Source of the DNA: Paenibacillus alvei DSM 29
GTDB taxonomy: Bacteria > Bacillota > Bacilli > Paenibacillales > Paenibacillaceae
Assembly (NCBI RefSeq): GCF_000293805.1
Contig: NZ_AMBZ01000001.1
Coordinates: 1,020,001 to 1,084,000 of the forward strand
Length of the DNA stretch: 64,000 nt
Reading direction: 5' to 3'
Made by a program: the position numbers and the translations under genes. The notes below the pieces were generated by a model that was not told the DNA's origin, ran no database searches, and was given only the letters and a program-made list of their open reading frames with translations. Below are positions 23,644 to 43,890 of the stretch, piece after piece (the first letter of the stretch is position 1; each line of letters starts with the position of its first letter).

Positions 23644-23713
23644 ACTCTTCGTCCTCCCCACCTTCGATAATGAGAACGCCGTCCTTAATCACCATTTCGA
23701 TTTGCTCTTCCAT
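23573..23713 (-). CDS. Small acidic ORF overlapping xpf start
   Basis: A 46-codon frame (MEEQIEMVIKDGVLIIEGGE and onward) with GGGAGG ahead of its ATG. The ATG overlaps the clamp stop as TGATG, and the last 70 bases overlap the start of xpf in another frame. The product is acidic and short. Strong translation signals argue that it is made, possibly as a coupling peptide for xpf. Function unknown. Confidence 0.45.
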   Translation of the reverse strand: MEEQIEMVIKDGVLIIEGGEDEEYGRLDSQVQEDDQKVNAGERVSA

Positions 23714-24779
23714 CAAGACACCTCCCTAGTTAAAACTGCACCGACTAAAAAGCTGCTGGAATCACCATTTATTATTACTGGGCCATTTTTTCCTACGAAT
23801 CCAAGTGCTACTTTTGCCATATCTGCCGCTCGTAGTGCATGGATTAGGTAACCCGAATCATAAGCACAAACCATTTCCTCGCCATGTGTTTCTGCGCTTA
23901 TGAAATCTGTTGTTTTCCCCAGTTCGTTACGAGCCGCTATTTCTATGCCACCATCAACAGTTTTTATTGATACGGCTCTAATTCCCTTGGAAGCCTTGTC
24001 TGCCGTAATAGTTGCCAATTCGATTGAGTTAATTAACTCCGAGGACTCTATCTCGACCTGGCACTTTGGCTCCTTACTCAAAACGGGTGGCGCTGGTGGG
24101 TAATTCTCGTTCAATAACCTTGTATATAAAACATGTGTCTCTGTAGCAAACACTCCAAAGTTGTTAGAAACAACGAAACTAATCTCTTTCTCAGTTAAAA
24201 TGTTTTCAATTAATTTCAAATGCTCCTTCGGAATGATGGCGACGAAATTCTCTTGACTCGGCAATTCTACGGTGTACATTGCGAATTGCTTTGTATCGCA
24301 TCCCGAGAATGTAAGAATAGAACCATCTGCTTTTATGCACATCCCTTTAAGGGCATTCGGAACTTTTTCGGTGATGATAGCGTGCGCCGTTTTTTAATAG
24401 CTTTCTTTAGAACATCTGAATCAATGGTGAAGCTCCATGTATCAGGTTCGGACAAATTAAATGGGAATGATTCAACGTCCAACAACGCCACTACAATCTG
24501 AGCGCGATTCCCCTTGATGCACAAGTTCCCTTCTTTTACCTCAAGATCAATTTTGTCGCCCCTGATTTTCATCAATATATCTAATAGAATCGGAGTTGCC
24601 ACGCAGCAGGTTCCAGCTTGGGTAATCTCTGCGTCCACCTGTGACTTGATTACAACGGTATCATCTGAGCTAGATAGCTTTACGGTGCCGCCTGCCGCCT
24701 CGATAAGCAGCTTTGACTTAGGAAATGTCATACACCGAATGGATTTTATCAGGTCATTTTTCTTTGCGCTCAGTTTCAA
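23713..24779 (-). pseudogene. dnaN: DnaN-like sliding clamp, split by one missing base
   Basis: Two adjacent frames together give a beta-clamp homologue of about 355 residues. The first part (KLSAKKNDLIKSIRCMTFPK to FTIDSDVLKKAIKK) is clamp domain 1; after the break come TAHAIITEKVPNALKGMCIK, domain 2, and domain 3 (AADMAKVALGFVGKNGPVII). The break is at a run of six A on minus (24390-24395): with seven A the two halves read as one protein. TTG behind GGGGGTG is the likely start. Either a true mutation, a sequence error, or -1 slippage on the A-run. If whole, it would serve phage DNA replication with the DnaB-type helicase. Confidence 0.75.
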
Positions 24780-25230
24780 AGATATCACCCCCATATGCTT
24801 CCTTAATGACCGTTCGTAGTCTGTGGTGAATGGTTGCGGATTCTGTATACGCCGCCGCCTTGCTGGTAGCTCCCAGCGTGTTCATAACTGCATCGAACAG
24901 CTTCTGTTCTCTAATCATCGTAGTTCCGAAAGCTTTGATAAATTCAGACCAGGAATCGAAGCGCAGCGTGGTTAGCTGCCCGACATCGTTCAAGTGAGAA
25001 ATACCCAATACTACGAATCCATCTTGCAGATACGGCGAGTCTTTGAGGATGTAAGTGACTTTGCACCAGAACACTTCCCCTGTGTACTCTTCTTTCAATG
25101 AATCCCATTCGCGCAATACCAATACATCACCAGTCCGATAACCTCTATCATTTTTGCGAACCTCGAACTTTTTATTCCCTTCAACTACCTCGGAAAAATA
25201 CTCTGGCAGGATTTTAAGATCATGCAGCAT
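24754..25230 (-). CDS. DUF3850 / ASCH-like protein
   Basis: A 158-residue protein. Residues 1-82 are a DUF3850 domain of the PUA/ASCH-like fold (HDLKILPEYFSEVVEGNKKF, EVRKNDRGYRTGDVLVLREW, then DGFVVLGISHL), likely an RNA- or nucleotide-binding module. The rest is helical and unassigned. GGGGAGG precedes the ATG. It overlaps the clamp start by some 26 bases. Such proteins are common in phage replication regions; their activity is not known. Confidence 0.8.
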   Translation of the reverse strand: MLHDLKILPEYFSEVVEGNKKFEVRKNDRGYRTGDVLVLREWDSLKEEYTGEVFWCKVTYILKDSPYLQDGFVVLGISHLNDVGQLTTLRFDSWSEFIKAFGTTMIREQKLFDAVMNTLGATSKAAAYTESATIHHRLRTVIKEAYGGDIFETERKEK

Positions 25231-27174: not shown

Positions 27175-28482
27175 TTACGAACCGCTATATTCGATATCAG
27201 CAAATTTACTGTAGTTTTTGAAATAGACCATCTCAATCAAACCCGTCCCGGTGTTTCTTCCCTTTGCAACAATGACTTCAACAATGTTTTTCTTCTCGGT
27301 ATCTGCGTTGTAATAGTCATCGCGGTACAGGAAAATTACCATGTCGGCATCAAATTCGATCTTCCCAGATTCCCGAAGGTCGGACATCATCGGGCGCTTG
27401 TCCTGCCGCTGCTCTACGCTTCGACTCAATGAGCTAATGACGACAATAGGACAATCATTTTCCCGCGCTATCTGCTTCAATTTTCCGCTTATGTAGCCCA
27501 CTTCCTCGTTTTTATTCGCGAAACGTTTCCCGCCGTCGATAAGCTGTAGATAGTCGATGAAGATGATTACTCGTCCATGCTGCTTGCGGAACGCTTTCAC
27601 CTTGGCGGCAATCTGCTGGATCGTTACGCCCGGGGAATCGTCAATCCATAGCGGTAAGTCAGCTACTATCTGGCGCGACATTGTGTATTTTCCCCATTCA
27701 TCGTCTGCCAGCAATCCGGTTCTAATCTTCATGCCATCGATATGCCCCACAGCCGATACAACTCGTTCAGCTACGGGCATGTCTGGCATTTCAAGGCTAA
27801 TTATGCCGACCGCATCCACCGTCTTAGAACGAGCCGCCGAAATTGCATCGTTCAGCATATACGCCGTTTTTCCGATGGAAGGCCGAGCCGCGATAATAAC
27901 CAAGTCTTGTTTCTGGTATCCACCAGTAAGCCTATCCATTGCAGAACTCGCCGTCTTCACGCCTGTAAGACCCTTTTGTTTCTGGCGCTCGATTATGATG
28001 TCTTCGTGATTGTTTAGGACATCACCCATAGATTTGAATGACTTGGTCGGCTCGGTTTGCTTCGCTAGGGCTTCTATTTCGTCCTGTATGGACGCTAAGA
28101 ACTCTTCTGGATCATTTACCCCTTTTCCCTCATCAAACTTCTTCTTGAGGGTTTCTAGCGTCTTACGGCGCATTGATGATTCCCATATGATAGTTTCATA
28201 GAAATCAAAGTTCGAGATGGACGGAGCGGCGTTGCTCAGTTGTGTCAGATATGACACGCCACCCATCCCCATCAATTCGTTGCCCATCCTATCAGCGAGT
28301 GTAATTGCATCAATGGGCTTTCCTTCGTCGTTCAGCCCTTGCATAGATTCAAAGATGAATCGATGTCCAGCGTAATAATAGTCTTCCGGTTTCAAACGGC
28401 TGCTTTCTATCAATTCCGGTTGGACAAGGATGCAACCAAGTGCCGACTGTTCCGTTTCAATACTCGCGAATTGACTAATCAT
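27175..28482 (-). CDS. dnaB: Replicative DNA helicase (DnaB-like)
   Basis: About 435 residues. An N-terminal helical domain (MISQFASIETEQSALGCILV) is followed by a RecA-like C-terminal domain with Walker A AARPSIGKTAYML near residue 205, Walker B VIIFIDYLQLIDGG near 310, and DLRESGKIEFDADMVIFLYR. It unwinds the phage origin fork as a hexamer. The ATG with GGAGGG ahead is preferred to an earlier start. The helicase-loader gene overlaps it upstream, matching a phage-encoded replication initiation set. Confidence 0.93.
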   Translation of the reverse strand: MISQFASIETEQSALGCILVQPELIESSRLKPEDYYYAGHRFIFESMQGLNDEGKPIDAITLADRMGNELMGMGGVSYLTQLSNAAPSISNFDFYETIIWESSMRRKTLETLKKKFDEGKGVNDPEEFLASIQDEIEALAKQTEPTKSFKSMGDVLNNHEDIIIERQKQKGLTGVKTASSAMDRLTGGYQKQDLVIIAARPSIGKTAYMLNDAISAARSKTVDAVGIISLEMPDMPVAERVVSAVGHIDGMKIRTGLLADDEWGKYTMSRQIVADLPLWIDDSPGVTIQQIAAKVKAFRKQHGRVIIFIDYLQLIDGGKRFANKNEEVGYISGKLKQIARENDCPIVVISSLSRSVEQRQDKRPMMSDLRESGKIEFDADMVIFLYRDDYYNADTEKKNIVEVIVAKGRNTGTGLIEMVYFKNYSKFADIEYSGS

Positions 28483-28783
28483 TCCGGTTCCCTCCTGCTG
28501 GCAAGCAAGCGGCGCTATTCCAGCCCTCAAGCATTGCCAGTCGTTCGATTGTCTCTTGCTTCTTTCGCTCTGCGTTTACACTACCTGACGAAGCCGAAAC
28601 CTCGGCAATCGTAGGCGGATATTTTGAATTTTGAATATGGTTAGTAAGGTTATTGATAGCTACATCAAAACGAACGTTGCGCATCATCATTTCCCAAAGC
28701 TTGATATATTCATCCGTTAGGGTTACCGTCGGGTACGCCGTTGAGAGCAAGGAAAGGATTTGAAGTGTCTCCTTCGGACTCAT
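28475..28783 (-). CDS. Helicase loader/inhibitor (G39P-like)
   Basis: A protein of about 102 residues with MSPKETLQILSLLSTAYP and DEYIKLWEMMMRNVRFDVAI, the N-terminal helical domain of SPP1 G39P-type loaders, and a flexible tail (KKQETIERLAMLEGWN). G39P holds the helicase in an inactive form and hands it to the origin protein. The ATG after GGAGGTACAGA is the start. It lies between the replisome organizer and DnaB genes, as in SPP1-like phages. Confidence 0.78.
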   Translation of the reverse strand: MSPKETLQILSLLSTAYPTVTLTDEYIKLWEMMMRNVRFDVAINNLTNHIQNSKYPPTIAEVSASSGSVNAERKKQETIERLAMLEGWNSAACLPAGGNRND

Positions 28784-29672
28784 TCTGTACCTCCTCCATT
28801 CTGCGCCGTAATAAATCTTTGTTGGCATCTGTCCGGTTCGCTGTATTTGAACTAGGCTTTCGCTTCATCTGCAAGCCAAGTTCCGTGTATTTCTCCCTGA
28901 GCTTCTTGGGGCTTAGAACAACAGAACTCCAAAATGAATTTGTTGTACACCAGTCGATAACGGTTTGAAGCTCCTTGGTATCACGTTTATCTAATTCGAT
29001 TATCTTTCTGAAATCATCCGACCAATTTTGCATATTGGGTTTTCTTATCAAATGAGCAACCTTGTTTGCTTCTGCATGCTCCATCACTTTCCGATGAAAA
29101 TATAATGCCATTTGAAAGTAGACATTTCCCTCATCATATTTTTGATGAGATAAGGTATTATCTTTTTCTATATCTATATCTATATCTATATCTGTTGCGT
29201 GACTGTCACGATTTGTCACGTCTGATTCTGTGACTTGTCCCGTGACTGTCACGTGACTATTTCCACTCTCTTGAAGAAGTAGCGCGCGTTGCTTTTCACG
29301 TTGCTTCCTCTTTCGATTCCGGTCTAGCTCTCTAATGCGCTCCATACCGTCAACATTTTGGTGTTTCTCCCAACTAGATAAGTAAACCCGACCATCTTCC
29401 CAAATCTCGATCATTCCGTATTGTTTGAACAGATTGAACGCAGCCCTTACGGTTGTGATTGGTCTGTTCATCAATGAAATGAGTTGGTCTTCTGTATAAG
29501 GAATGGTGTCGGTAAGCATGATTGAACCGCCAGCGTTAGACTTTCCAGCCATAGTAAGGAGCTTTAGCCAAATAACGATGAGCGTATCTGCTTCTGGAAG
29601 GGTTTCTATAACCTCTATTTTCTTGTTGTCAAATAACCCGACACTTAACTTAATCCACTTGATTTCTGACAC
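28710..29672 (-). CDS. Phage replisome organizer (origin-binding protein)
   Basis: About 320 residues. Residues 1-120 form the winged-helix N-terminal domain of phage replisome organizers (SEIKWIKLSVGLFDNKKIEV, YTEDQLISLMNRPITTVRAA). A charged Gln/Arg linker follows, with an Asp-Ile run (TDIDIDIDIE) encoded by a 6-bp repeat. The C-terminal helical part (HRKVMEHAEANKVAHLIRKP) would bind helicase or loader. GTG behind AGGAGGG is chosen. It probably melts an origin within or near its own gene. Confidence 0.85.
   Translation of the reverse strand: MSEIKWIKLSVGLFDNKKIEVIETLPEADTLIVIWLKLLTMAGKSNAGGSIMLTDTIPYTEDQLISLMNRPITTVRAAFNLFKQYGMIEIWEDGRVYLSSWEKHQNVDGMERIRELDRNRKRKQREKQRALLLQESGNSHVTVTGQVTESDVTNRDSHATDIDIDIDIEKDNTLSHQKYDEGNVYFQMALYFHRKVMEHAEANKVAHLIRKPNMQNWSDDFRKIIELDKRDTKELQTVIDWCTTNSFWSSVVLSPKKLREKYTELGLQMKRKPSSNTANRTDANKDLLRRRMEEVQNESEGDTSNPFLALNGVPDGNPNG
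29168..29196. repeat. 6-bp tandem repeat in replisome organizer gene
   Basis: About four to five copies of TATATC (GATATA on minus) code for alternating Asp-Ile. As the unit is two codons, copy-number change alters linker length but keeps the frame. Confidence 0.8.
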
Positions 29673-29686
29673 GTGATTTCTCCCTC

Positions 29687-29854
29687 CTATTGCAAAGGAG
29701 CAAAATTTTGTATACAATTGCCGTAACTTTTGTTTTCAAGCTGACCCTCTGCAAAGGGTCTTTTTTCTTTCTTCTCGCAGATATTGCGAACGATGATTGC
29801 ATGTTGCAGCGGACTACGGTAGAACCATAGGCGAGCAAGTTCGGGTAAAGTCAT
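29687..29854 (-). CDS. Small phage protein (55 residues)
   Basis: MTLPELARLWFYRSPLQHAI begins a 55-residue protein rich in aromatic and basic residues. Its ATG overlaps the stop of the preceding gene as ATGA, and its stop lies just ahead of the AGGAGGG of the replisome organizer, so it fills the gap of the operon exactly. No family could be named. A hairpin with a plus-strand T-run (29743-29766) lies inside it. Confidence 0.6.
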   Translation of the reverse strand: MTLPELARLWFYRSPLQHAIIVRNICEKKEKRPFAEGQLENKSYGNCIQNFAPLQ

Positions 29855-30378
29855 GACTCTTTACCGTTGATGTATCCAACAGTTAAAATTTGTTCGCCGC
29901 CGCCCAATACTTTCGCGTTCTTAATGACTCTTCCTTCAACTAACAATTGATTCATGTAGTTTAGTGATTCATCGAAATCTGTTGATAATACGTTCAACTT
30001 GATTACTTCATCTTCTGTATCATCGCAACCATTAGCTAATTCAATAGCTTCTTGAGGTAATGCATCACTGTTAAACCAGGCTGCGTATTCTTCATTCACT
30101 ATACATATAAGGATCTGGCAGTCAGTAACTTCCTTGGCGAACGAATGAGAATCAACATCAAACGTTAAATCGGTTTCCCCAAGACTTACGACTAAGACTT
30201 CCCCTTCTTCTTCTACGAAATATTCCGTTGATACAGGCTCTTGAGCAATTGCGACAAAAGGATCATTGTGTTTACCGATGTTTATTTCCAAACTGCATTT
30301 TGCATTGTACTTCTTCATCACCTCGAATAAATGCATAACTTCTCTAGCTTTTGATTCTTTCAATTGGATAGTTGACAT
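29851..30378 (-). CDS. Early phage protein of unknown function
   Basis: A 175-residue acidic protein starting MSTIQLKESKAREVMHLFEV behind AAAAGGAG. It has a basic N-terminal helix, a beta-rich centre (EGEVLVVSLGETDLTFDVDS) and a C-terminal helix-strand unit (SLNYMNQLLVEGRVIKNAKV). No family is recognised. It is the gene just after the ORF6N regulator in the early operon, so an early takeover or regulatory role is possible. Confidence 0.65.
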   Translation of the reverse strand: MSTIQLKESKAREVMHLFEVMKKYNAKCSLEINIGKHNDPFVAIAQEPVSTEYFVEEEGEVLVVSLGETDLTFDVDSHSFAKEVTDCQILICIVNEEYAAWFNSDALPQEAIELANGCDDTEDEVIKLNVLSTDFDESLNYMNQLLVEGRVIKNAKVLGGGEQILTVGYINGKES

Positions 30379-31690: not shown

Positions 31691-31888
31691 TTACCTTACA
31701 AGTTCATCTACTGTTACATCTAAAGCGTTTGCTAACTTCACCAACGTTTCTGCGTTAGGGCCTTGCTTTTTCGCACCGAGACCATACAATACAGTTAGAG
31801 ATACCCCACTCTCTTTTCCAAGACGGTAAACAGTCCATCTTTTTTCTTCAAGAAGCTTATGGACGTTTTCTGCGATTGTCATTCCCAT
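31691..31888 (-). CDS. Cro-like repressor (XRE family)
   Basis: A 65-residue XRE helix-turn-helix protein (IAENVHKLLEEKRWTVYRLG then KESGVSLTVLYGLGAKKQGP). It starts at MGMTIAEN behind AGGAGGTGAACGACAG; the longer reading would run through the operators. It is the first gene in the lytic direction and diverges from the repressor, so it plays the Cro part. Confidence 0.8.
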   Translation of the reverse strand: MGMTIAENVHKLLEEKRWTVYRLGKESGVSLTVLYGLGAKKQGPNAETLVKLANALDVTVDELVR

Positions 31889-31915
31889 CTGTCGTTCACC
31901 TCCTGAACATATCTT

Positions 31916-32047
31916 ATAACTCATACGGGTTATATACAATCCCGATAATAACCCGTATGAGTAATACAACACCCTTTTTTCTCCATCTTACTCTTTTGTT
32001 CTTGACATATCGCACTATCTCCATGTAATATAACCGTATCGGGTTAT
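31916..32047. promoter_or_regulatory. Three operators of the lysogeny switch
   Basis: Three related 18-bp sites lie between cro and repressor: ATAACTCATACGGGTTAT (31916-31933), its inverted near-copy ATAACCCGTATGAGTAAT (31948-31965) and ATAACCGTATCGGGTTAT (32030-32047). The half-site is ATAACC. The first two are 32 bases apart, near the leftward promoter; the third overlaps the -10 of the repressor promoter and would give autoregulation. The layout recalls lambda's two operator groups. Confidence 0.75.
32002..32031 (+). promoter_or_regulatory. Repressor promoter
   Basis: TTGACA and TAATAT are 18 bases apart, upstream of the repressor gene. Operator three begins at the end of the -10. Confidence 0.75.
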
Positions 32048-32069
32048 AACTCAATTAGGTAGGTGTGGA

Positions 32070-32561
32070 ATGGTGAGCATTGTTGAAAGAATCGATGCGC
32101 TGATGAAAGCTAAAAAGATAAGCCGTTATCAGCTAGCAAAAGATACTGACATACCTTACACGACGTTAACAAATATCTTGATAGGCAGAACAAAAGACCC
32201 TCAGATCAGCACTCTCCAGGTCATTGCAGACTATTTTGGCGTCCCCTTAGATCGAATCACAGGTAATAAACACCAAGAAGACCACCCTGAATGGGCCAAT
32301 CAAAAAGACAAAAGAGACTTCAAAAAGATGCTCGAAGATGATGCGAGTCTAATGTTCGACGGCGTACCAATCGAAGGGGAGGACAGGGAGAAAGTTATGC
32401 GAGTTCTTGAAGCCCTCTTCTGGGATGCGAAGCATAGAAGCAAGGAAAAGTTTACAAACAAGCGCTATAAAGAGAAATCAGACGATACAAAAAATAACTG
32501 TCTGAGGAGTGTTTGTATACATGATAAATCGGGCTATCAGGATATTGATGCAGAAATATAA
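32070..32561 (+). CDS. C1-like prophage repressor (XRE family)
   Basis: A 163-residue protein with an N-terminal XRE domain (RIDALMKAKKISRYQLAKDT, then DIPYTTLTNILIGRTKDPQI) and a helical C-terminus without a LexA-type peptidase. It thus fits the ImmR class, removed by an ImmA-like protease, which the next gene encodes. AGGTAGGTG precedes the ATG. It probably binds the three 18-bp operators. The gene overlaps its successor by 41 bases. Confidence 0.88.
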   Translation: MVSIVERIDALMKAKKISRYQLAKDTDIPYTTLTNILIGRTKDPQISTLQVIADYFGVPLDRITGNKHQEDHPEWANQKDKRDFKKMLEDDASLMFDGVPIEGEDREKVMRVLEALFWDAKHRSKEKFTNKRYKEKSDDTKNNCLRSVCIHDKSGYQDIDAEI

Positions 32562-32943
32562 GACAAATTGCCCTTTCGAGATAGCAAAACTAAGAGGAAT
32601 AATATTGAGATTCGAGGATCTAGGGGATTCTACTTTCGGAATGTATTATACAAAATTCCGGCAGCGCTACATTGTTATCAATAACAAAATTAGCGAGGAA
32701 TGGCAGCGTGTCGTATGTGCACACGAGTTGGGACATGACCTCTTGCATTTTGGCGTTAACCGATTCTTTGTTGATAGCCATACATTCTTTTTGTCCGCCA
32801 AGCAGGAACGACAGGCTAATATTTTCGCAGTACAGTTGCTCACGGCAAACGATACAATTTACGATGGTGAATCTGTTTTTAATTATTTTTGCCGTATTAA
32901 GATCCCAGATGAAATGGTTTCTTACTACAAAGGCGTTTCATAG
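32521..32943 (+). CDS. ImmA/IrrE-like metallopeptidase
   Basis: A 140-residue M78 protease with the zinc motif VCAHELGHDLLHFG (HExxH) near residue 67 and the third-ligand region KQERQANIFAVQLL. ImmA-type enzymes cut the phage repressor upon DNA damage or signalling, which starts the lytic cycle. The ATG behind GAGGAGTG is chosen. It overlaps the repressor gene, so the two are translated together, as in ICEBs1. Confidence 0.88.
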   Translation: MINRAIRILMQKYKTNCPFEIAKLRGIILRFEDLGDSTFGMYYTKFRQRYIVINNKISEEWQRVVCAHELGHDLLHFGVNRFFVDSHTFFLSAKQERQANIFAVQLLTANDTIYDGESVFNYFCRIKIPDEMVSYYKGVS

Positions 32944-33027: not shown

Positions 33028-34232
33028 ATGGAAAAAAAAGCTCCAAAGAAGAAGAAACTCCCGCCCGGAGTCCGAGAACGAGATGGTCGTTACACATATA
33101 GGTACAGTGTGCCTGTCATCGTAGACGGAAAAAAGAAACGGAAACAAAAGGAAACGGAAGCATATCCAACAGCTCAGGAGGCTTACGAGGCTGGGATATT
33201 AATAAGAGCCGATCAGTTACGGGGAAAGTTGGTTGATGAGAAGGAAATTACATTAGAGAAGTGGCTGGAACGTTGGTTAGAGAACTACATTATAGAAAAT
33301 GACCCCAGGGGAAACACAATAAGCAACAAAAAGACTGTAATCTCATCGTTAAAGAGGTTTCTAGGTAAGGACACTAAAGTCAAAGAAATAACAGGCGATG
33401 ATTATCAGCAGTGGCTGAACGACTTGAAGAAGAAAGGGCGAGAGGAGGGGACATTAAAGGAATACCATAGTAATGCACGTATGATGTTTGGAAATGCCGT
33501 TCACAAAAAATAATTACCAATGATCCCACAGAAGGATCGAAAGTCCCCGTATTTAAACAAACACTCGAGGAGATCGAGTCTGGAGAAACAGACTTGCCAA
33601 AATATTTAGAAAAAGAACAATTGAAACATTTACTGAACACCGCTAGGTTTCGAGGTTCTACCCAGAACTACAACCTGTTCGCTGCCCTTGCCTACACAGG
33701 ACTACGGATCGGGGAGTTGTTGGCACTCAAGATAGATGATTTCAACGAAAGTGAACGATTCATTTCCGTCACTAAAACATTAACCGATATCGGTGGTGTC
33801 CGAAAATATACGCTAGGACCGCCTAAGAATAAATCGTCCATCCGCAAGGTAAGTATCGGTGAAACGGTAATTAAAGCTATCAAGTCTCAGTTAGCTTGGC
33901 AGGAACGGAAAAGGAAGGAAGTAGGGATTAAGCACGACGTGGGGTTTATCTTTTGGAGTTCGAAGTTTCCGGGATACCCAGGCAATATAAACATGGTAGA
34001 GTATCATTTCAAGAAATTGCTTACGCTCGCAGGACTTCCAACGTCCCTAACACCGCACAGCCTGAGGCATACACACGTAACACTATTAGCTGAGGCGGGT
34101 GAAGATCTAGCTGTCATCCAAGACAGATTAGGACATAAAAACGATAAGATTACTACTCAGGTCTATCTGCACGTTACCCAATCGCGGAAAAAGCTTGTTC
34201 CTGATAAATTTGAACGACTCATGAATTCCTAG
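33028..34232 (+). pseudogene. int: Phage integrase (tyrosine recombinase), split by one missing base
   Basis: Two frames together give an integrase of about 401 residues. The first part has an AP2-like arm-binding domain (RERDGRYTYRYSVPVIVDGK) and a SAM-like core-binding domain (ITLEKWLERWLENYI). The second has the catalytic set: YTGLRIGELLALK (Arg), TPHSLRHTHVTLL (His-x-x-Arg), LGHKNDKITTQVYLHV (His, Tyr). The break is in six A (33505-33510) just before TAA: a seventh A restores the frame (KKIITNDPTEGSK). If genuine, the prophage may be unable to excise by itself; a sequence error is equally likely. Confidence 0.85.
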
Positions 34233-34693
34233 ATCATTGTGGGTAACGTGTGGGTAAACCACTCCTCAGAAAACGGAATATCCGCTTTATTACAGGGTTT
34301 TCTCTTTTCGTCCAGCACTTGGATTTCAAATTCACGATCCTCAAGCTCCGAGCCGTACGTAGCCGCCGGAACCTTTTTCACAACAGCCTGCGTACCGCCG
34401 ATCGTTTCATTTGGTTGATTGTTGGACTTCACCCAAATTTGGAACAACTTCTTCTCGCGTGCAAGACGATACAGGAGCGGAAGCTGAGGCGACGTCGACA
34501 TCAATGTCAACTTAATTGTTCCGAGCGGATTGTTCTTATGGGCAATCGCTACCTCGCCGCGCGCACCAACATGCGCAACCGTCTGCTCCTCGTCCTTTTC
34601 ACAGGAAACGAATGTATTTTCGCCGAATCCCGTAAGGTAACCGTTGTTGATTGTTACAGAAACTTGCTTTGCATCATAAATACCGATACTCAT
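34229..34693 (-). CDS. Resident tail tube protein, 3' end replaced by prophage
   Basis: A 154-residue DUF3277-type tube protein with NNPLGTIKLTLMSTSPQLPL and EDREFEIQVLDEK, clearly homologous to the prophage tube protein (11259-11657), which stops a few residues later. Here about 23 unrelated residues follow (RKPCNKADIPFSEEW and more), coded by prophage-end DNA. The gene thus lies across the right junction. The fusion keeps the whole conserved tube fold, so it may still work. AAAGGATGG precedes the ATG. Confidence 0.85.
   Translation of the reverse strand: MSIGIYDAKQVSVTINNGYLTGFGENTFVSCEKDEEQTVAHVGARGEVAIAHKNNPLGTIKLTLMSTSPQLPLLYRLAREKKLFQIWVKSNNQPNETIGGTQAVVKKVPAATYGSELEDREFEIQVLDEKRKPCNKADIPFSEEWFTHTLPTMI
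34239..34257 (+). repeat. Phased GTGGGTAA repeats next to prophage right end
   Basis: Two copies of GTGGGTAA start at 34239 and 34250, 11 bases apart, right after the integrase stop. Phased repeats of this kind are typical arm sites of AP2-domain integrases, so the right attachment site should lie close by, between here and 34310. Confidence 0.5.
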
Positions 34694-34804
34694 AGATAAG
34701 CACCATCCTTTAATAGAAAATGTTTTGTGATAAACAAATCACTTTTAGCACCAAGAAGGTTGCAAGAAATCGAAGCGTCATGCTTCGTGATGGAAAGTGA
34801 TCCA

Positions 34805-35803
34805 CTAAAAGCGGATAACACCGTTCACCTTCACCTGATGCACCGCGCCCGCGATCTCGAACCAGAACGAGCCGCCGCGGTATTCGCGATTCGCGCGATC
34901 GGTTGGATTCACCTCATTGCGCTGCAAGAAGGACGTACCGAACAACGGCTCGCCGCTGTCGTCTGTCGCGATGATGCCCATACGGGAAGATTCCAACAGC
35001 ACATTAATGACCGCACTCTCGATTTGGACAATTCCTGCATCCGTGTACGGAATTTTGCTCGATTGATTAAGCAAATTCTGAATTTGCATTTCCATGCGGG
35101 CACGCACATAATCACGCGCCATAATGACGTCGATATACTCACCGGACAGCGTCTTGCCTTCCGAAGTGCGGGCCTCACCCTGCTTGTTCACGTACGTAAT
35201 CGCGCCGCTGTCGTGGATTTCCATCAACTCGCCAGCCGTTACCTTCATCGCCTCGATTCCTGTGCACTTCTTGAACTTCCACGTCACAGAGCCAACTTCA
35301 GCGGAACCAACCGAACCTACGAGCGCAGCTTCTGGGTATACCGCGGCATCCGTGTGATAGAACACGACCGTTCGCGTATAGGCCTTGGACTTCAGCGCTT
35401 GAAGCTTTGTCTTATCAGCAGCACGGGTAAAGAACAGACGGTAATCTTCCTTCTCTATTTCTGCGGCCAATGCCTCAACTACAGCTTCACTGTTATCGGA
35501 GGAGAGCAGATAGTACCAGCCGTTATCGAATACAGAACGAAGGCGAACTACCGGTTCTTCATTCTCATCACAAGCTGTAATCGCAATGCGAGCCGGTGAG
35601 CGGTCACCTTGTCCAAAGAGCGCCTCCGCCATTTTGTATTCCACCGTCGTATCCGCGAAATCATCCTTGACTGCCTTTAGATCCCCATATTCTTTATAGG
35701 CAGAACCTCCGGTCTTTTTCCCGATAATAAGCGGCATTCCGAAGGACAACCGACCTGTAGGCTTTTGTAAATCAATCGTTACTTGCACATCTTGAATAGA
35801 CAT
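34805..35803 (-). CDS. Resident tail sheath protein (DUF3383 type)
   Basis: A 332-residue sheath protein homologous end to end with the prophage sheath: VQVTIDLQKPTGRLSFGMPL at the start, AVYPEAALVGSVGSAEVGSV in the middle, EIAGAVHQVKVNGVIRF at the end. Base composition is more GC-rich than the prophage copy. AAGGAGTG precedes the ATG. The 110-base gap to the tube gene holds a nested stem (ATCACTTT/AAAGTGAT around CGAAGC/GCTTCG), perhaps adjusting tube levels. As a tailocin part it would drive killing by contraction. Confidence 0.88.
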   Translation of the reverse strand: MSIQDVQVTIDLQKPTGRLSFGMPLIIGKKTGGSAYKEYGDLKAVKDDFADTTVEYKMAEALFGQGDRSPARIAITACDENEEPVVRLRSVFDNGWYYLLSSDNSEAVVEALAAEIEKEDYRLFFTRAADKTKLQALKSKAYTRTVVFYHTDAAVYPEAALVGSVGSAEVGSVTWKFKKCTGIEAMKVTAGELMEIHDSGAITYVNKQGEARTSEGKTLSGEYIDVIMARDYVRARMEMQIQNLLNQSSKIPYTDAGIVQIESAVINVLLESSRMGIIATDDSGEPLFGTSFLQRNEVNPTDRANREYRGGSFWFEIAGAVHQVKVNGVIRF

Positions 35804-35809
35804 GAACAA

Positions 35810-36271
35810 TCACTCCTTCTTTTCGTTTCGTTGTAATTCCACTTTTTCAATGAACGTAATGGTTCGCTCAAAGCGATCCTTCATTCGGAGCCTAATGTGG
35901 AGACCTAGTCCGGCAGTCGGCTCCGTCTTCCACTGCGCGGGCCCAATATGCACCTGCACGGCTGGGATTGTCGTCAAGCACTCCAACCCTTCCGTCCACT
36001 GCCAGCCGAGCAAATCTCGGCAGCGTTCCGCCATATCCATGCGTTCTTTGGAGCAAATGAGAAGAAGCCACTCCATTTCGATGACCTTCTCGATCATCCC
36101 CTCTGACTCCGCATGATGCGGCGAGCAATCAATGTAGGGCTCAGCCACGTCATACGCGATAAGCGGTTCCGTCTGATCCGCCCTTAGGCCGTCCAAGGGA
36201 ACAATCGGCATGTTCAATGCCTTCCCCATGGGCAAGAGCCATCGTTCTACGATGTCGCGATATACAATCAA
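35810..36271 (-). CDS. Resident neck / tail terminator protein (LIC_12616 type)
   Basis: A 153-residue protein homologous to the prophage neck protein; the shared motif is EPLIAYDVAEPYIDCSP near residue 35. It starts with TTG behind GGGAGGTGATGTG. It is the first gene of the resident tail operon, with 350 non-coding bases upstream that hold two divergent promoters. In a headless particle it would cap the tube. Confidence 0.78.
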   Translation of the reverse strand: MIVYRDIVERWLLPMGKALNMPIVPLDGLRADQTEPLIAYDVAEPYIDCSPHHAESEGMIEKVIEMEWLLLICSKERMDMAERCRDLLGWQWTEGLECLTTIPAVQVHIGPAQWKTEPTAGLGLHIRLRMKDRFERTITFIEKVELQRNEKKE

Positions 36272-36626: not shown

Positions 36627-37091
36627 ATGATGATGGGGTTCTTGGACATGCCAGAGCATGAAGCGATGGATGTGAAGCAAGCAAAAGCACGAATTGATGA
36701 GGTATTTGCCAAATACAGAATGTGTAAAGTGATGAGGTTCACAGTTCGCGAAGCGCGCATTACAACGAATTATGAAGCGAGAGAAAATGGCGCGACCAAC
36801 CGGTTCGGCGACCCAACTGCCGCTGTAGCGGTCTATAATACAGATAAAGCAAGCGAATGTCTGGCGTTTTGCGAATTGATTGAATCCATCGTGCACGAAT
36901 TGGAGCCGGACGAGCAACTGCTTATCCGCGAGCGATATATGAAGGAAGCCCGCATGACGGATACGAAGGTATACAATTTCCGATTCGATCCCCCAATCAG
37001 CGCCGTAACCTACGGACAAATCCGCAAGCGCGCATTCGCCAAGCTGCTGAATGCCTTCCAGTACGCCTTTCGTTCAACCAGGACATCGTAA
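36627..37091 (+). CDS. ArpU family late transcription regulator
   Basis: A 154-residue protein of the ArpU family, regulators of phage packaging, lysis and late genes. Family features are AKARIDEVFAKYRMCKVMRF at the N-terminus and a C-terminal sigma-like region with EPDEQLLIRERYMKEARMTD and ISAVTYGQIRKRAFAKLL. The ATG follows GGAGG. It diverges from the resident tail operon, probably switches it on through the box at 36447-36460, and is itself under LexA. Confidence 0.85.
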   Translation: MMMGFLDMPEHEAMDVKQAKARIDEVFAKYRMCKVMRFTVREARITTNYEARENGATNRFGDPTAAVAVYNTDKASECLAFCELIESIVHELEPDEQLLIRERYMKEARMTDTKVYNFRFDPPISAVTYGQIRKRAFAKLLNAFQYAFRSTRTS

Positions 37092-37203: not shown

Positions 37204-37241
37204 TTGCATACAATCAATAAGGTTACTATAATAGTAGTAAC
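37204..37241 (+). promoter_or_regulatory. MFS gene promoter with palindromic operator
   Basis: TTGCAT and TATAAT (37227-37232) are 17 bases apart. The palindrome GTTACTA...TAGTAAC (37222-37241) surrounds the -10, a position at which a bound repressor would block RNA polymerase. No regulator gene is adjacent. Confidence 0.65.
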
Positions 37242-37272
37242 TTTTTATTCAAAACAGAAAGGAATGTCTCTT

Positions 37273-38448
37273 TTGAATTTTCGTGTATATATTTTAGCAG
37301 TAGCGGCATTCGTGGTCGGTACGGTAGAACTCATTATTGGAGGAATCCTCGATCAGATTGCCTCGGATTTGAACATTTCCGTCAGTGCAGCCGGGCAGCT
37401 GATTACAATCTTCTCGATTGCTTTTGCTGTATCGGCGCCTATATTAATGAATCTCACGGCCAAATTTGAGCGCAAAAAATTGTATATTGTCTTTTTGTTC
37501 ATTTTCCTGATCTCGAATCTTATCGTAGCGTTCAGCTCGAATTATGCAACATTGCTCGCGGCCAGAGCCTTGTCTGCATCCAGCGGCTCGCTGCTTGTCG
37601 TGTTGTCGATCACAATTGCCTCGAAACTCGTCCAACCGGAATATAAAGGACGCGCCATTGGCGTAATCTACATGGGCATCAGCGGTTCACTTGTCTTAGG
37701 GGTTCCTATTGGCATGGTTATTGGGAATGCGTACGGATGGCGAGCACCGTTCCTGCTTGTTGTGGGATTAACGGCAATTGCGATCATCGGGATTTACGCC
37801 TTCTTATCGAAGGTACCTCCTTCCGGGGTTACGACATTGCGCACCCAGCTTGCATCTCTGAAAAGTGCGAAGCTAGTTAGCGGCCATCTCATTTCGTACT
37901 TGATGCTGACAGGACATTTGACTCTCTATGCATACTTGACTCCTTATTTACAGAAGACGTTCCAGCTTAGCCCAGGCATGACCAGCATCGTGTACTTCTT
38001 GTTCGGCTTGGCAGCCGTATCTGGCGGAGGACTTGGCGGCTTGCTGGCGGATAAGTGGGGAACAAAACGTTCCATTCTGCTTATTGTATCGAGCTTCGCG
38101 GTGATTATGTTTGTCCTGCCGCTAACGGCACAAGTATCGTTCTACGTCTTCTTGATCTCTATGGTGATCTGGAGTGCGCTCAGTTGGGCATTATCCCCGG
38201 CGCAGCAAAGCTATCTCATGCAGTCTGCTCCCGATACGGCTGACATTCAGCTTAGCCTGAACTCATCAGTACTTCATCTTGGTATTGCAAGCGGTTCTGT
38301 CGTGGGCGGTCTTGTCATTGAACAGAGCTCAGTAGCCAATAATGCATGGGTTGGCTGTCTGTTCGTCCTGCTGGCGCTGGGTAGTGCCATGTTCTCTCTG
38401 ACTCGTTCTTCCCAAGTTAAGGCAACTACAGCTGCTGCAGCTGAATAA
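37273..38448 (+). CDS. MFS transporter, DHA1-like efflux family
   Basis: A protein of about 391 residues with twelve predicted membrane segments. Motif A-like sequence is degenerate (NLTAKFERKKLYI), and GRAIGVIYMGISGSLVLGVP is the DHA1 motif C region of drug exporters. It resembles AraJ/YdhP-type exporters of small molecules. TTG at LNFRVYIL is preferred because AAAGGA lies nine bases upstream, while the ATG three codons before touches it. The palindromic promoter suggests induction by a substrate. Substrate unknown. Confidence 0.82.
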   Translation: MNFRVYILAVAAFVVGTVELIIGGILDQIASDLNISVSAAGQLITIFSIAFAVSAPILMNLTAKFERKKLYIVFLFIFLISNLIVAFSSNYATLLAARALSASSGSLLVVLSITIASKLVQPEYKGRAIGVIYMGISGSLVLGVPIGMVIGNAYGWRAPFLLVVGLTAIAIIGIYAFLSKVPPSGVTTLRTQLASLKSAKLVSGHLISYLMLTGHLTLYAYLTPYLQKTFQLSPGMTSIVYFLFGLAAVSGGGLGGLLADKWGTKRSILLIVSSFAVIMFVLPLTAQVSFYVFLISMVIWSALSWALSPAQQSYLMQSAPDTADIQLSLNSSVLHLGIASGSVVGGLVIEQSSVANNAWVGCLFVLLALGSAMFSLTRSSQVKATTAAAAE

Positions 38449-38557
38449 ATGAAGCAAGCCGAAGGCAGCCGATATGATGCAAATTCCACGCGTTTATATT
38501 TGGTTAACCACCTGGTTAATTGGAAGCGAATTTATATTCAATGCAGGAAATAAGCCC

Positions 38558-38605
38558 AAAAAACGACACTCTACTCCGAAAATTGGTATAGAGTGTCGTT
38601 TTTAC
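38558..38605. terminator. Bidirectional terminator after MFS gene
   Basis: A perfect stem AACGACACTCTA/TAGAGTGTCGTT has a T-run on plus and an A-run ahead of it, so it can work both ways. Confidence 0.85.
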
Positions 38606-38656
38606 TTTTAATTTTACGAAATTTAATTTTAGTTACATTTCGTTAACATGAAAGCG

Positions 38657-38685
38657 TTGACACGATACAATATATATCATATATT
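38657..38685 (+). promoter_or_regulatory. Promoter of subtilisin gene
   Basis: TTGACA and TATATT are separated by 17 bases. The 97-base leader that follows contains an AAAGGAGGTG not followed by a long frame, then the true AGAGGAGTG. Confidence 0.75.
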
Positions 38686-38781
38686 CTTAGTTGTACCGCC
38701 ATCATTTTCAGAATATGAAAGGAGGTGTAAAAAACCTGGTAAGTGCTATCTATAATTTATAGAAGAGGAGTGTAAAGCCGG

Positions 38782-41700
38782 TTGAAGAATCTACGTTTAT
38801 TTGTAAGCCATTTGCTAGTAGTCGTATTGACGCTATTTTCCCTCCTGTTTCCGATTTCCGCATACGCATTTGATTCATACACAGAATTGACGGGGCAGGC
38901 ACTGAGTCCTGAAGTGCGCGCAAAAATGCAGCAGATTGTTGATCAGAATACATTTACAGAAGGTCAAGAGCCAGTACTGCATCCCGATTTACAAAACCTT
39001 ACCGACGACAAGGAAATTTCAGTTATCGTCCAATTATCCGAAGCCCCGGTAGCTCTAGCGAAGGGTATGAGTATGCTTGAGGGCAAATCATTTACTGCAG
39101 CCTCAGAACAGAACACGAAACAAAAAATCGCTAAACAGCAACAAAGCTTTGTTAGCCAATTAAGCAGCAACAAAATCAAAGCTAGCGTAGGCTTTACATA
39201 CAAGTATGCATTTAATGGAGTCTCTCTTAAGGCAAAAGCAAGTCAAGTGGAACAGTTGCTTAAGCTGAACGGTGTACAAATGGTAGAGCCTGACGTGGAA
39301 GTCCACGCTCTAGGGATAGAGTCCTCAAAGCTGCCGGATAGTGAAGTTCATCCAATGATGAACACAAGTAATCCATTCCTTGAAGTTCCAGCCGTATGGG
39401 CCTTAGGCTATACAGGCCAAGGAGTTAAAGTAGGCGTTATTGACACCGGAATCGATTATTATCATCCGGAATTAAAAGACGTTTATAAAGGCGGACATAA
39501 CTTTATTACGCAAGTAGTAGATGGTTCTGAGACGGGATACGCTCGCGCTAGAGCGGATGACGATCCGTATGAAACAACACCGCTGGATCACCCTGATAAT
39601 AGACCGTGGGTGCACCCTACTACTGGAGAACCTTTTAATACCCAACATGGAACCCATGTTGCCGGGACTATTGCTGCTCAAGGCAAGAACCCTTTTGGTA
39701 TAAAGGGGCTTGCCCCTTCGATTGAATTGTATGCCTATCGCGTGCTGGGCGCGTACGGGAGCGGCTCGAATTCAGGAGTTATTGCGGGTATCGATAAAGC
39801 CGTAGCCGAGCAAATGGACATTATTAATCTATCTTTGGGCGGACCTAACAATAGCCAAGTTGCTTCTGACGCAATCGCCATCAACAATGCGGTTCTAGCG
39901 GGCACGGTAGCAGTCGTTTCTACGGGTAACTCAGGTCCAAACAGAGGGACCATCGGCAGTCCAGGCACGGCAGCTTTTGCGATATCGGTAGGCAACTCTA
40001 CTGTTCCGGAAAAAACGATGGCTGGAAAGGCTTCCGTAACTCTAGACAAAGCGGGAACCAGCACACCATATATCATGAATTTGATGGCATGGAAATTCGG
40101 CACAGAACCGAAAAATATTTTGACGGGAACGTATGATGTCGTTGCAATCCCTGGCGTAGGCCAAACGACGGATTACACAGGTCTGAATGTGAACGGCAAA
40201 GTCGCTCTCGTTGCCCGCGGAGATATTGCCTTCGTGGATAAAATCGCAGCAGCAAAAAGCGCAGGTGCCGTAGCGGTTATTGTTCACAACTCTTCGAGCG
40301 GAACGAATACTCCAGGGCCAGCGGGGGTTCTTGTAGGAGATTCCTTCGCGTCCATCCCAACGTTTGATATGTCCTACACAGACGGAAGCGCGCTGCGAAA
40401 GGCTCTTGCGAACGACACAGGAACCGTTACCTTCGGAGAATTCACTACCGGTTCGACTTTAGGCGACGATATCAATAATTCCAGTTCGCGCGGGCCTGCC
40501 AATCCGGTCTTTGATATTAAACCGGACGTCTCCGCTCCAGGAACCAACATCATGTCATCGATTCCTGCCTATGGCAAAGATTATGCCGATCAAGGACAGC
40601 CTCAGCCTGACTATACCGAATCCTACGACCGTTTTACAGGAACGAGTATGGCGGCTCCACACGTAGCAGCGGTTGCAGCTTTGCTTAAATCGCAGCATCC
40701 GGATTGGACTCCGTTCGATATCAAAGTCGCGATTTCGAATACGGCTAAGCAACTGGACGTAACCAAAAACGACGTATTCGCTCAAGGTCCGGGACGTATT
40801 CAGCCGCTTAAAGCAGCGACGACCGAAGCGCTCGCGTATGAATCGGAACCGACCACCTTTTCCAATAAGACCTATGACAATATCAAAGGCACGATCACCT
40901 TCGGCAACGTGTTTCCGAATGCGAATAATCCAACAACGGTAACGCGGTCTATTCTAGTCAAAAACGTAACGGGAAGCCCAAGCGACTATACGGTATCCGT
41001 CCAAACGACAAAAGCGGCAACAGGCACGTTAGCGAGTTCGAACGTAACGGTCGACAAGTCCAGCTTTACGTTAACAGATGAACAAAATTTAACCGTGACG
41101 CTAAACGTTCCGAAAGGGACTGGAACAACCGGTAACGAAATGCTGGGTTACGTGAAGATTACAAACGGAACGACAAATCTAATTCTTCCCTTCGCGGCGA
41201 ATTTCACCCCACCTACGGGATTGAAGACCTATACGATCGACAGCAACCATATCTCTCCAAACGGGGATGGCAAGCTGGACAGCACGACTGTGAGATATGA
41301 ATTCTACGATAGGCAAGCAGCTACGTACATTGAACTTTATGATCTAAACGATCTAACTGGCGGACCTTACGGAGACGGTTCTATCGGATGGATTTTGAAC
41401 ACCGGCAGCACGACAACGGGAGCAAAAACGTTAAACTTTACCGGTAAATATCATCCGTGGGGACAATCGGGATCAACCCTGAGCGCGTTGGCTCCGGAAA
41501 GCGTCTATGCCATGCAGATTACAACGCTAAACTCCACCCAAACGGCGGTCGTAGCAAGGGGATTTCTTCCGGTATATATCAAGACGAGCACGCCTAAAAT
41601 CGTTTCGTCCGACAGTCTGAATGTCACAGGTTCGAATTTGCAGTTCTCCGGTTCGATCGACGATTCTTACGTGAAATTCGGACCCGTCGTTGAAAAAGAA

Positions 41701-43890
41701 TTGAACTTGGATTACAACATTAACGACAACTTGCACATGAAATACGAACTATCGGACAGTAACGACAACTTGATTTCTTCGCAACCGGTAACGCTTGATC
41801 AAAATGGAAACTTCGGAATCACGTTAAACGGTTTAACAACCGGAATAAATAAGCTGAAATTGATCGTAGATGATGCGGCGGCTAATCATGCGGAGAAAGT
41901 CGTTACGATTACTAGCGCAGATCCCGTGTTAAGCGGAATTAAAGTACAGCCAGAGGCTTTAACCTTAGGCGTCGGTTCCACTGCGGATCTTATAGTAACG
42001 GCTCAATATATTGATGCGGACGGCAAGCCATTCCCGGTAAGCGTTAGTGACGTTACGTATGGGGCCATCTATACCGATTACGATCTGAGTGTCATAGACG
42101 TTGTCTATGGTAAAGTAACGGCGGTAGGTGAAGGCAGCACATCGATAACGGTATCTTATGGAGGGAAATCGGCTTCGGTACCCGTTACCGTCACTACAAC
42201 TCCAGTCGATCCTGTATTAACGTCCATTTCGGTATCGCCGAACAGCGTGGCTCTAAAAGTTGGGAAGGATGCTCAGCTTACGGTTAACGCGGTGTATAGC
42301 GACGGAAGCAAGAAAGACGTTACAAACGATGCTGATTATAGTGTAGCTCATTCAGCCATTGCTACGGTAAGCGACACCGGAAAGGTGGCAGCCATAGGAA
42401 AAGGTGAAACGACAGTAACCGTATCTTACGAAGGTAAAACCTACGAGGCACCTGTTACTGTCACAGAAGAAACGACAACCCCAGTCAAATTAACGTCGAT
42501 TTCGGTATCGCCGGACAGCGTGGCTCTAAAAGTTGGGAAGGATGCTCAACTTACAGTCTCCGCGGCATATAGCGATAAAAGTAAGAAAGACGTTACAAAG
42601 GATGCAAAGTATAGCGTACCTGGTACGAACATTGTTACAGTAAGCAATACCGGCAAGGTGACAGCCGTTGGAGCAGGGAAAACGACAATCACTGTATCTT
42701 ATGAAGGCAAATCTTACGAGGTGTCAGTCACCGTAACCAAGGATTCTAGCACAACGAATCCAGGAACACCGACTTCTCCAAGCTCGCCATCGACTTCCAC
42801 ACCAAGCTCACCATCGACTCCTGCACCATCGGGTAAGAAAGCAAAAGCGGGCACGCTCTATATGAAGAAAAATGATAAGGGTATGACTTTCGCAACGATA
42901 AGCGTATCGACTGAGGCCTTGATCGCCCAGTTGAAAGATTCAAAAGCGGCCGACGTCACGCTGGACCTTACCGATATTGGCTTCAACGACTACAACAGTG
43001 TAGATGCAATCTTCGACAAAGCAACGGCCGACAAACTACTGGCATCCGGCAAAGGGTTAACCCTTACCGGCAATGGATTCACTATCAGAGTCCCTGCGGA
43101 TGCATTGGCTGATTTTATTGGTGAAAAAGGTTTTAAATTAATCTTATCGGTAAAAGATCCTGACAATGGTGAAGTGAAGATCCTGTCGGTAAATCAAACA
43201 ACCATCGTATCGAAGATCGTAACGATCGGCAACGATAAAGGAAAATTGAGCCATCCGATTGAAATCGGCCTTAAGCCGTCCAACAAAGTAATCGATTTGC
43301 AAAAAGTAGGCGTATACCAGCAAGACGGAAGCGGGAAATGGGGATATGTAGGATACAATGCCGCGCATCAGCCGGGGAACATTCAACTTACGACGTCAAC
43401 GTTCGGTTCCTTCGAATTGATGGAGGTTCAAATTTCGTTCGACGATATTCAAACCCATTGGGCAAAACATGAAATCGAAGTTATCGCGGCTCAACACGTA
43501 ACCAACGGAAAAAGCGAATCCAAATTCGTTCCGAACGATACGATAACGCGCGCAGAATTCGTGGCGCACTTGGATCGTATTCTTGGCCAAGAGAAAGAAT
43601 GGAGTCATTACGTCACGATGGCAGGGGCAAATGATATCCTGGGCCGCCAAGAAATGGTCGTATTGATGGTCAATGCCATGAAAGTCGATCTGCAAGGCGA
43701 GAAAGTGCAATTAAACTTCAAGGATAAAGATCGGATTTCGGCGAATGCCCAAGCCGCGGTAGCGTATGCGGTAAATAAAGGATTGATCAATGGCATGTCT
43801 AACAACACTTTCGCTCCCGATCAAAGCTCCACTCGCGCGCAAGTGGCTTCTATTCTCTATCGTATGATGAAACTCTTAGGCACAATTTAA
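38782..43890 (+). CDS. Secreted S8 subtilisin with Ig-like and SLH domains
   Basis: A 1,702-residue secreted protease. Order: signal peptide (1-29); I9 prodomain (about 70-175); S8 catalytic domain with Asp221 (GVIDTGIDYYHPEL), His289 (QHGTHVAGT) and Ser622 (GTSMAAPHVA), split by a PA domain near 440-560; Fn3-like and Ig-like modules (about 680-1060); three Big_2-type Ig repeats (about 1050-1320), of which the last two are near-identical; a Ser/Thr/Pro linker; a beta domain; and SLH motifs at the end. The middle SLH motif is shortened. TTG start behind AGAGGAGTG. Probably Vpr-like, held on the cell wall through SLH. Confidence 0.93.
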   Translation: MKNLRLFVSHLLVVVLTLFSLLFPISAYAFDSYTELTGQALSPEVRAKMQQIVDQNTFTEGQEPVLHPDLQNLTDDKEISVIVQLSEAPVALAKGMSMLEGKSFTAASEQNTKQKIAKQQQSFVSQLSSNKIKASVGFTYKYAFNGVSLKAKASQVEQLLKLNGVQMVEPDVEVHALGIESSKLPDSEVHPMMNTSNPFLEVPAVWALGYTGQGVKVGVIDTGIDYYHPELKDVYKGGHNFITQVVDGSETGYARARADDDPYETTPLDHPDNRPWVHPTTGEPFNTQHGTHVAGTIAAQGKNPFGIKGLAPSIELYAYRVLGAYGSGSNSGVIAGIDKAVAEQMDIINLSLGGPNNSQVASDAIAINNAVLAGTVAVVSTGNSGPNRGTIGSPGTAAFAISVGNSTVPEKTMAGKASVTLDKAGTSTPYIMNLMAWKFGTEPKNILTGTYDVVAIPGVGQTTDYTGLNVNGKVALVARGDIAFVDKIAAAKSAGAVAVIVHNSSSGTNTPGPAGVLVGDSFASIPTFDMSYTDGSALRKALANDTGTVTFGEFTTGSTLGDDINNSSSRGPANPVFDIKPDVSAPGTNIMSSIPAYGKDYADQGQPQPDYTESYDRFTGTSMAAPHVAAVAALLKSQHPDWTPFDIKVAISNTAKQLDVTKNDVFAQGPGRIQPLKAATTEALAYESEPTTFSNKTYDNIKGTITFGNVFPNANNPTTVTRSILVKNVTGSPSDYTVSVQTTKAATGTLASSNVTVDKSSFTLTDEQNLTVTLNVPKGTGTTGNEMLGYVKITNGTTNLILPFAANFTPPTGLKTYTIDSNHISPNGDGKLDSTTVRYEFYDRQAATYIELYDLNDLTGGPYGDGSIGWILNTGSTTTGAKTLNFTGKYHPWGQSGSTLSALAPESVYAMQITTLNSTQTAVVARGFLPVYIKTSTPKIVSSDSLNVTGSNLQFSGSIDDSYVKFGPVVEKELNLDYNINDNLHMKYELSDSNDNLISSQPVTLDQNGNFGITLNGLTTGINKLKLIVDDAAANHAEKVVTITSADPVLSGIKVQPEALTLGVGSTADLIVTAQYIDADGKPFPVSVSDVTYGAIYTDYDLSVIDVVYGKVTAVGEGSTSITVSYGGKSASVPVTVTTTPVDPVLTSISVSPNSVALKVGKDAQLTVNAVYSDGSKKDVTNDADYSVAHSAIATVSDTGKVAAIGKGETTVTVSYEGKTYEAPVTVTEETTTPVKLTSISVSPDSVALKVGKDAQLTVSAAYSDKSKKDVTKDAKYSVPGTNIVTVSNTGKVTAVGAGKTTITVSYEGKSYEVSVTVTKDSSTTNPGTPTSPSSPSTSTPSSPSTPAPSGKKAKAGTLYMKKNDKGMTFATISVSTEALIAQLKDSKAADVTLDLTDIGFNDYNSVDAIFDKATADKLLASGKGLTLTGNGFTIRVPADALADFIGEKGFKLILSVKDPDNGEVKILSVNQTTIVSKIVTIGNDKGKLSHPIEIGLKPSNKVIDLQKVGVYQQDGSGKWGYVGYNAAHQPGNIQLTTSTFGSFELMEVQISFDDIQTHWAKHEIEVIAAQHVTNGKSESKFVPNDTITRAEFVAHLDRILGQEKEWSHYVTMAGANDILGRQEMVVLMVNAMKVDLQGEKVQLNFKDKDRISANAQAAVAYAVNKGLINGMSNNTFAPDQSSTRAQVASILYRMMKLLGTI
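42217..42740 (+). repeat. Recent tandem duplication of an Ig-like domain
   Basis: Two 273-bp units (42217-42489, 42490 to about 42740) within the subtilisin gene are nearly identical at the DNA level in their first 65 bases and code for 91-residue Big_2-like domains. Confidence 0.85.

Follow-up and report, generated by a model that had tools for sequence, protein, structure and literature searches.

The 64,000-nucleotide stretch of Paenibacillus alvei DSM 29 analysed here (hereafter the window; contig NZ_AMBZ01000001.1, positions 1,020,001 to 1,084,000, or G000:C5:1020001-1084000 in our numbering) contains one end of a prophage and, directly abutting it, the proximal genes of a phage-tail-like bacteriocin, or tailocin. 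A temperate phage has very probably integrated in the tail-tube gene of this headless tailocin, which is conserved across the genus, splitting and disabling it. In the proposed mechanism, the phage's own tyrosine integrase would insert at a core of 15-20 bp in the last tube codons, exchanging the last 6 tube residues for 26 phage-coded residues. The prophage would thereby land between the neck-sheath-tube genes on one side and a chaperone-like gene, presumed tape measure, baseplate, fibre, holin, and amidase genes on the other. The split would stop coordinated expression, so that the lysogen probably makes no tailocin, and the loss looks fixed here, to judge from a frameshifted integrase and a fragmented tape-measure gene. 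The core, both junctions, the empty sites in relatives, the displaced tailocin half, and a second lysogen are demonstrated at the level of sequence. Positions below are those of the window unless preceded by C5, which denotes the whole contig; the prophage ending in the window is called A and the one at C5:85.1-133.5 kb is called B. The features at the junction are:

34229-34693, minus strand: hybrid tail-tube gene of 154 residues, matching PHROG 280 (E 5.9e-30) across residues 1-130.
34314-34333, minus strand: attachment core, GAATTTGAAATCCAAGTGCT on the coding strand, codons EFEIQVL of the tube gene, with an exact copy at C5:85086-85105 (minus strand).
34235-34265, plus strand: end of the phage, lying between the integrase gene and the core and containing two GTGGGTA repeats; in the tube frame it codes for THTLPT of the extension.
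33028-34232, plus strand: tyrosine integrase, broken into two frames by a frameshift between ~33504 and 33549; its end lies opposite the tube gene's 3' end.

With up to three mismatches allowed, the 20-bp core occurs in exactly two places of the 6.83-Mb genome, C5:85086-85105 and C5:1054314-1054333, each a perfect copy on the minus strand; a control pattern in the same genome-wide search gave one match. The junction is not a chance resemblance, since the core has only these two places and an independent genome carries the same type of junction at the same codons. A degenerate form of the core returned 46 loci, two of which are the present junctions and 44 ordinary tube ends or chance frames. 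The original prediction, made from the letters of the window, had placed the integration correctly at the 3' end of a resident tailocin tube gene, but looked for the repeated core at 34233-34310, whereas the sequence actually shared is 34314-34333. No left attachment site (attL) was found by a repeat search in window positions 1-38000 or by exact 12-mers in the window and 30 kb leftward; the partner lay 969 kb away.

At that partner, the core copy at C5:85086-85105, lie the missing tube-gene end and the second, distal half of the tailocin. In the closest relative, G016 (presumably Paenibacillus sp. NAIST15-1), the tube region is uninterrupted and aligns to both halves, the proximal one from C5:1054311 rightwards and the distal one at C5:~75.8-85.1 kb, with an overlap of 23 bp at the core. 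When the flanks are joined, proximal up to the core and distal from the core, they encode a tube of 134 residues ending in DYTHRTE, letter-identical to database protein P0001 (an entry of two member sequences on 25 contigs). The site has the marks of a tyrosine-integrase prophage: an integrase stands beside one junction, the two junctions carry the same core, and relatives have the site unoccupied. The predicted second tail set beyond the left prophage end was absent from the ~12 kb read past C5 ~1017.4 kb, where that end lies in the assembly; the missing half stands instead behind the core copy, at C5 ~75-85 kb.

Residues 1-128 of the hybrid tube align with related Paenibacillus tubes and, as had been proposed, conservation then gives way to residues coded by prophage-end DNA. 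The extended tube reads ...EFEIQVLD|EKRKPCNKADIPFSEEWFTHTLPTMI, the change following EFEIQVLD and comprising 26 residues; integration cost six native residues. Within the extension, THTLPT (ACCCACACGTTACCCACA) is coded by the GTGGGTA repeats. A genome-wide search allowing up to three mismatches finds the stretch 34235-34265 nowhere else. Similar repeats occur at C5:85.2 kb, close to the core there, as well as at the C14 contig end and at a junction in a DedA-like gene described below. The repeats resemble integrase arm sites, and the conservation of THTLPT across both lysogens may reflect DNA sites and not protein function. The tube fold, thought in the original prediction to be kept, is plausibly retained, as only the last six residues are lost and the extension (residues 135-154) falls in the least confident part of the fold model, with a predicted local distance difference test score (pLDDT) under 50; the model is weak overall, with a mean pLDDT of 58.5.

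The resident genes proximal to the junction are:

34805-35809, minus strand: tail sheath, PHROG 205 (E 8.5e-81), 61-96% identical in 17 other genomes of the genus.
35810-36271, minus strand: neck or tail-terminator-like protein, with a weak match to PHROG 1232 (E 7.8e-4), its position kept in the compared relatives.
36627-37091, plus strand: divergent late regulator beside the tailocin, matching the transcriptional activator PHROG 248 (E 3.5e-16) and adjoining the locus in 5/5 compared relatives; a Pfam search gave no match, and we take it to be ArpU-like.

As expected, the profile search found no head genes among these proximal sheath, neck-like, and regulator genes, the neck assignment being weak. 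A sheath match is present in all 19 genomes of the genus searched and is of the resident type (61-100% identity) in 18; G009 was left out of this count because its sole sheath match, at 49%, is prophage-copy-like. The resident tube is uninterrupted and ends at 132-134 residues in 16 of the 18 genomes, which supply the prophage-free site that the original prediction had proposed to look for. It is extended in the remaining two, this genome (154 residues) and G008 (160 residues), and in both the phage DNA begins after identical codons. In four related loci (L039, L040, L041, and L047), for which the comparison covered the whole locus or the greater part of it, the regulator, neck, sheath, and tube genes run unbroken into distal genes homologous to the chaperone-position, baseplate, and fibre genes of the window phage; the amidase falls within the stretch covered for L041 only. 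Neither these four loci nor the two tailocin halves here contain head or terminase genes. Pfam supports Dit-like/LysM, baseplate J, and amidase proteins in the relatives' loci, and PHROGs support a holin and an amidase in the distal half here. The tailocin flanks are syntenic with those of G016, the genome whose flanks were compared. The tape-measure label rests on place and length because the proteins at that position match no family; that of one relative gives a weak match (27%) to the tape measure of the window phage. Judged by its genes, the locus is a headless contractile tailocin conserved in the genus.

The second lysogen, G008 (presumably Paenibacillus sp. 2.1), has a tube reading ...EFEIQIHDITCKPCNKAD...THTLPT..., and its proximal half (at a contig end, L038) and distal half (G008:C16 from 16317, L161) have CGCGAATTTGAAATTCAA in common. 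Its integrase, a Phage_integrase protein (PF00589) in one open frame at the same site, is 76% and 82% identical to the two integrase pieces of the window, and homologues of the window's switch-region genes (31691-32943) adjoin it. The presumed tape measure of G008 is likewise open, at 610 residues. Its distal side includes 16 kb of prophage sequence, in which the stretch from neck to fibre shows homology to the window prophage in the same gene order (~72% nucleotide identity in the longest piece). This colinear homology supports the assignment of the window prophage body to the phage that uses the tube site. Two IMG/VR contigs, 2827179085_000007 and 2827179085_000009, were considered as a further strain; three compared stretches were letter-identical to the present assembly, and they therefore provide no independent evidence.

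The displaced half in this genome shows signs of decay. The presumed tape measure is broken into pieces of 284, 129, and 287 residues, and is one open frame of 581-898 residues in 12/12 relatives examined (12 of 15 loci; L038 was left out because its contig stops within the prophage, L050 because its tube belongs to a prophage, and L052 because it comes from a distant metagenome-assembled genome). As a control, 27/29 chromosomal and proximal open reading frames of at least 150 residues are full length relative to G016, versus 5/7 in the distal half. Frameshifts are not universal in the genome, since the integrase homologues on contigs C9 and C22 are open. The split integrase and fragmented presumed tape measure would fit disuse of the tailocin. 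The separation of the operon halves is seen in the sequence, and the disabling of the tailocin, raised in the original prediction, is its most likely consequence.

Several observations weigh against this account. It draws on sequence and not on expression, particles, or excision. The two cores do not flank one contiguous prophage but lie 969,228 bp apart, with other prophage ends between them, and in G008 the tailocin halves are on two separate contigs. No PHROG or Pfam family was found for the long open reading frame at the tape-measure position in the five proteins or pieces tested. The two exceptions among the 29 control frames are one clear split and one shortened frame, and the frameshifts could be sequencing errors. 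The distal tailocin genes also share their orientation with phage lysis genes at C5:87-88 kb, which makes read-through into the distal half possible; a read-through transcript could still express it. One terminator-like place on the minus strand, at C5:~87.03 kb, lies between the amidase gene of this phage lysis set and the core; it consists of two overlapping matches among seven (both strands, 3.8 kb scanned; 3.3 expected).

The separation of the two cores reflects a wider puzzle in the assembly, in which three attachment pairs are present and prophage ends are joined in rotated order. The tailocin halves are 969 kb apart. The window prophage has its left end at C5 ~1017.4 kb (~1017430, L004), beside a tyrosyl-tRNA synthetase gene, and carries there a 21-bp core that recurs at C5 ~11.46 kb, at the 3' end of groEL. 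The contig opens with another prophage, integrated at that groEL site and equipped with an integrase of its own, which is split (C5:1-11458, L100). The left end of prophage B bears the tube core, and its right end forms a junction in a DedA-like (VTT domain) gene, the 3' end of which is a third attachment site with a related integrase (C5 ~133590, L071; other side at the end of C14, L110, where that contig breaks off). The integrases of B and of the prophage at the start of C5 are likewise split. Two exact repeats link A and B:

28442-29889: 1448 bp identical to prophage B (C5:127190-128637), with a replisome-organiser gene within, at two places in the genome with unrelated left flanks.
134-174: 41-bp terminator-like repeat, exact in prophage B (C5:88364-88404), a possible point of switching between the prophages.

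The 1448-bp repeat was considered as the place of a false join between A and B and set aside, as the G008 prophage is A-like through tail and fibre and B-like in its amidase and in the ~170 bp adjacent to the core. Those ~170 bp resemble the end of B and not the left end of A, and the G008 amidase is closer to B (67%) than to A (62%). Modest evidence thus points to the lysis region near 134-174 as the likely switch between A and B. The assembled left end of the window prophage appears to come from another phage and should be used with caution.

Against this background, later recombination among prophages and misassembly are about equally likely causes of the 969-kb separation. That it is a real rearrangement by inter-prophage recombination, a reading compatible with integration in the tube gene, seems plausible if a little short of even: the exact 1448-bp identity between prophages with unrelated left flanks offers a substrate, and an E. 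coli study mentions, in its available text, inter-prophage recombination that translocates chromosome segments (PMC8112680). It would nevertheless take a three-way exchange of prophage ends among the tube, groEL, and DedA sites, and C14 stops ~0.2 kb inside one prophage and C5 starts ~11 kb inside another, as assemblies broken at repeats do. The junction between tube and integrase could itself be suspected as an assembly artefact, given that C5 mixes the ends of three prophages and that A and B have the exact repeats of 1448 and 41 bp in common. We consider this very improbable, as an independent species has the same type of junction with a diverged phage, and the core copies and displaced gene end fit site-specific integration exactly.

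Two further readings concern what the integration does. In a reversible switch (active lysogeny), induction would excise the prophage and rebuild the 134-residue tube and the operon, and the tailocin would be made only then. The joined flanks do give the native-type tube exactly, both the integrase and the presumed tape measure (610 residues) of G008 are open, and coupling of a prophage and a tailocin has been reported in Listeria (PMC6872733, available text). The switch is unlikely all the same, as this genome has a frameshifted integrase and a presumed tape measure in pieces, and phage induction is expected to lyse the cell regardless. The earlier suggestion of regulation by excision is thus doubtful in the present genome and possible in G008. 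The notion that the incoming phage swapped tail parts with its host, the resident and phage tails having recombined by homology, fares worst and can practically be discounted. Both tails carry a tube and a sheath of the same families, but these are 45-48% identical in protein, the junction is the integrase core, with the integrase directly adjacent, and not a homologous crossover, the added residues do not derive from the phage tube, and no junction of the resident to the phage tube was seen here.

Phages inside prophages are known; what appears new is the use of a tailocin tube gene for this purpose. No report of a tailocin or tail structural gene as a phage attachment site was found in the open-licence literature searched. 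As described in the available text of Nakamura et al. 2021 (PMC8112680), E. coli prophages integrate into prophages via bacterial attachment sites (attB) of 21 or 96 bp, likewise short sites in a resident, mostly defective prophage, with complex clusters as the result. Those attB copies are said there to derive from host chromosomes and to be tied to effector-gene regions or to lie near an integrase gene, and a search of the available main text for words starting with "tail" gave none. The site described here, by contrast, lies in native codons of a structural gene, in a headless tail conserved across the genus. The Listeria phage phi10403S and the monocin locus (PMC6872733, available text) offer a parallel in that a temperate phage and a tail-like bacteriocin locus reside together in one cell, which either can lyse; there the two are separate elements linked by regulation, whereas here the phage sits inside the tailocin.

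Contractile tailocins of the PBSX-like type occur in Bacillales, and the present locus follows their order of regulator, neck, sheath, tube, chaperone-like gene, tape measure (by position), LysM/Dit-like, hub, baseplate J, fibre, holin, and amidase genes. It differs in that no head genes were seen here and in that a prophage interrupts the locus in 2/18 genomes. An incoming phage has here parked in a host weapon itself derived from a phage tail, probably switching the weapon off. Because lysogens are available in two species, sister species keep the native allele, and the gene can be restored, it becomes testable whether this represents competing lysis programmes, a switch, or the use, by chance, of a conserved gene end. 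We tentatively propose, as an idea with a small but real chance of being right, that a Paenibacillus phage lineage has specialised on the tailocin tube gene. Integration would uncouple the distal tail and holin/amidase genes from the promoter side, so that DNA damage would run phage lysis only; with a working integrase, excision would return the tailocin, and late phage transcription into the distal half may supply fibre and baseplate genes.

The remainder of the prophage and its switch region comprise:

1-31378, minus strand: prophage body with anti-repressor, replication, head, and tail genes by PHROG matches (a subset of open reading frames scanned), the left end lying beyond the window.
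11259-11657, minus strand: the prophage's own tube, PHROG 280, 45% identical to the resident tube.
11675-12694, minus strand: the prophage's own sheath, PHROG 205, 48% identical to the resident sheath.
31691-31972 and 32070-32561: prophage switch of divergent repressor/Cro-like regulators, with PHROG transcription-regulation matches.
32509-32943: ImmA/IrrE-type metalloprotease gene, Peptidase_M78 (PF06114, E 5.3e-14) and phrog_87.

Inside this body, distant from both ends, 21416-22030 encodes a second integrase-like protein (204 residues, phrog_216, PF00589), and a homologue of a DNA polymerase processivity factor (phrog_947) at 23713-24794 is in two overlapping frames, apparently frameshifted. 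Homologues of the tube-site integrase are also found on C9, C22, and C24, those of C9 and C22 being the open copies noted above. Five of 30 integrase-homologue loci were inspected: one of them proved to be the tube site of G008, two have the gene of an AraC-type regulator or of a D-Ala-D-Ala ligase opposite the end of the integrase, and the other two are ambiguous. On the far side of the tailocin regulator, 37204-43890 encodes a major facilitator superfamily transporter and a subtilase-family protein of 1702 residues with S-layer homology domains.

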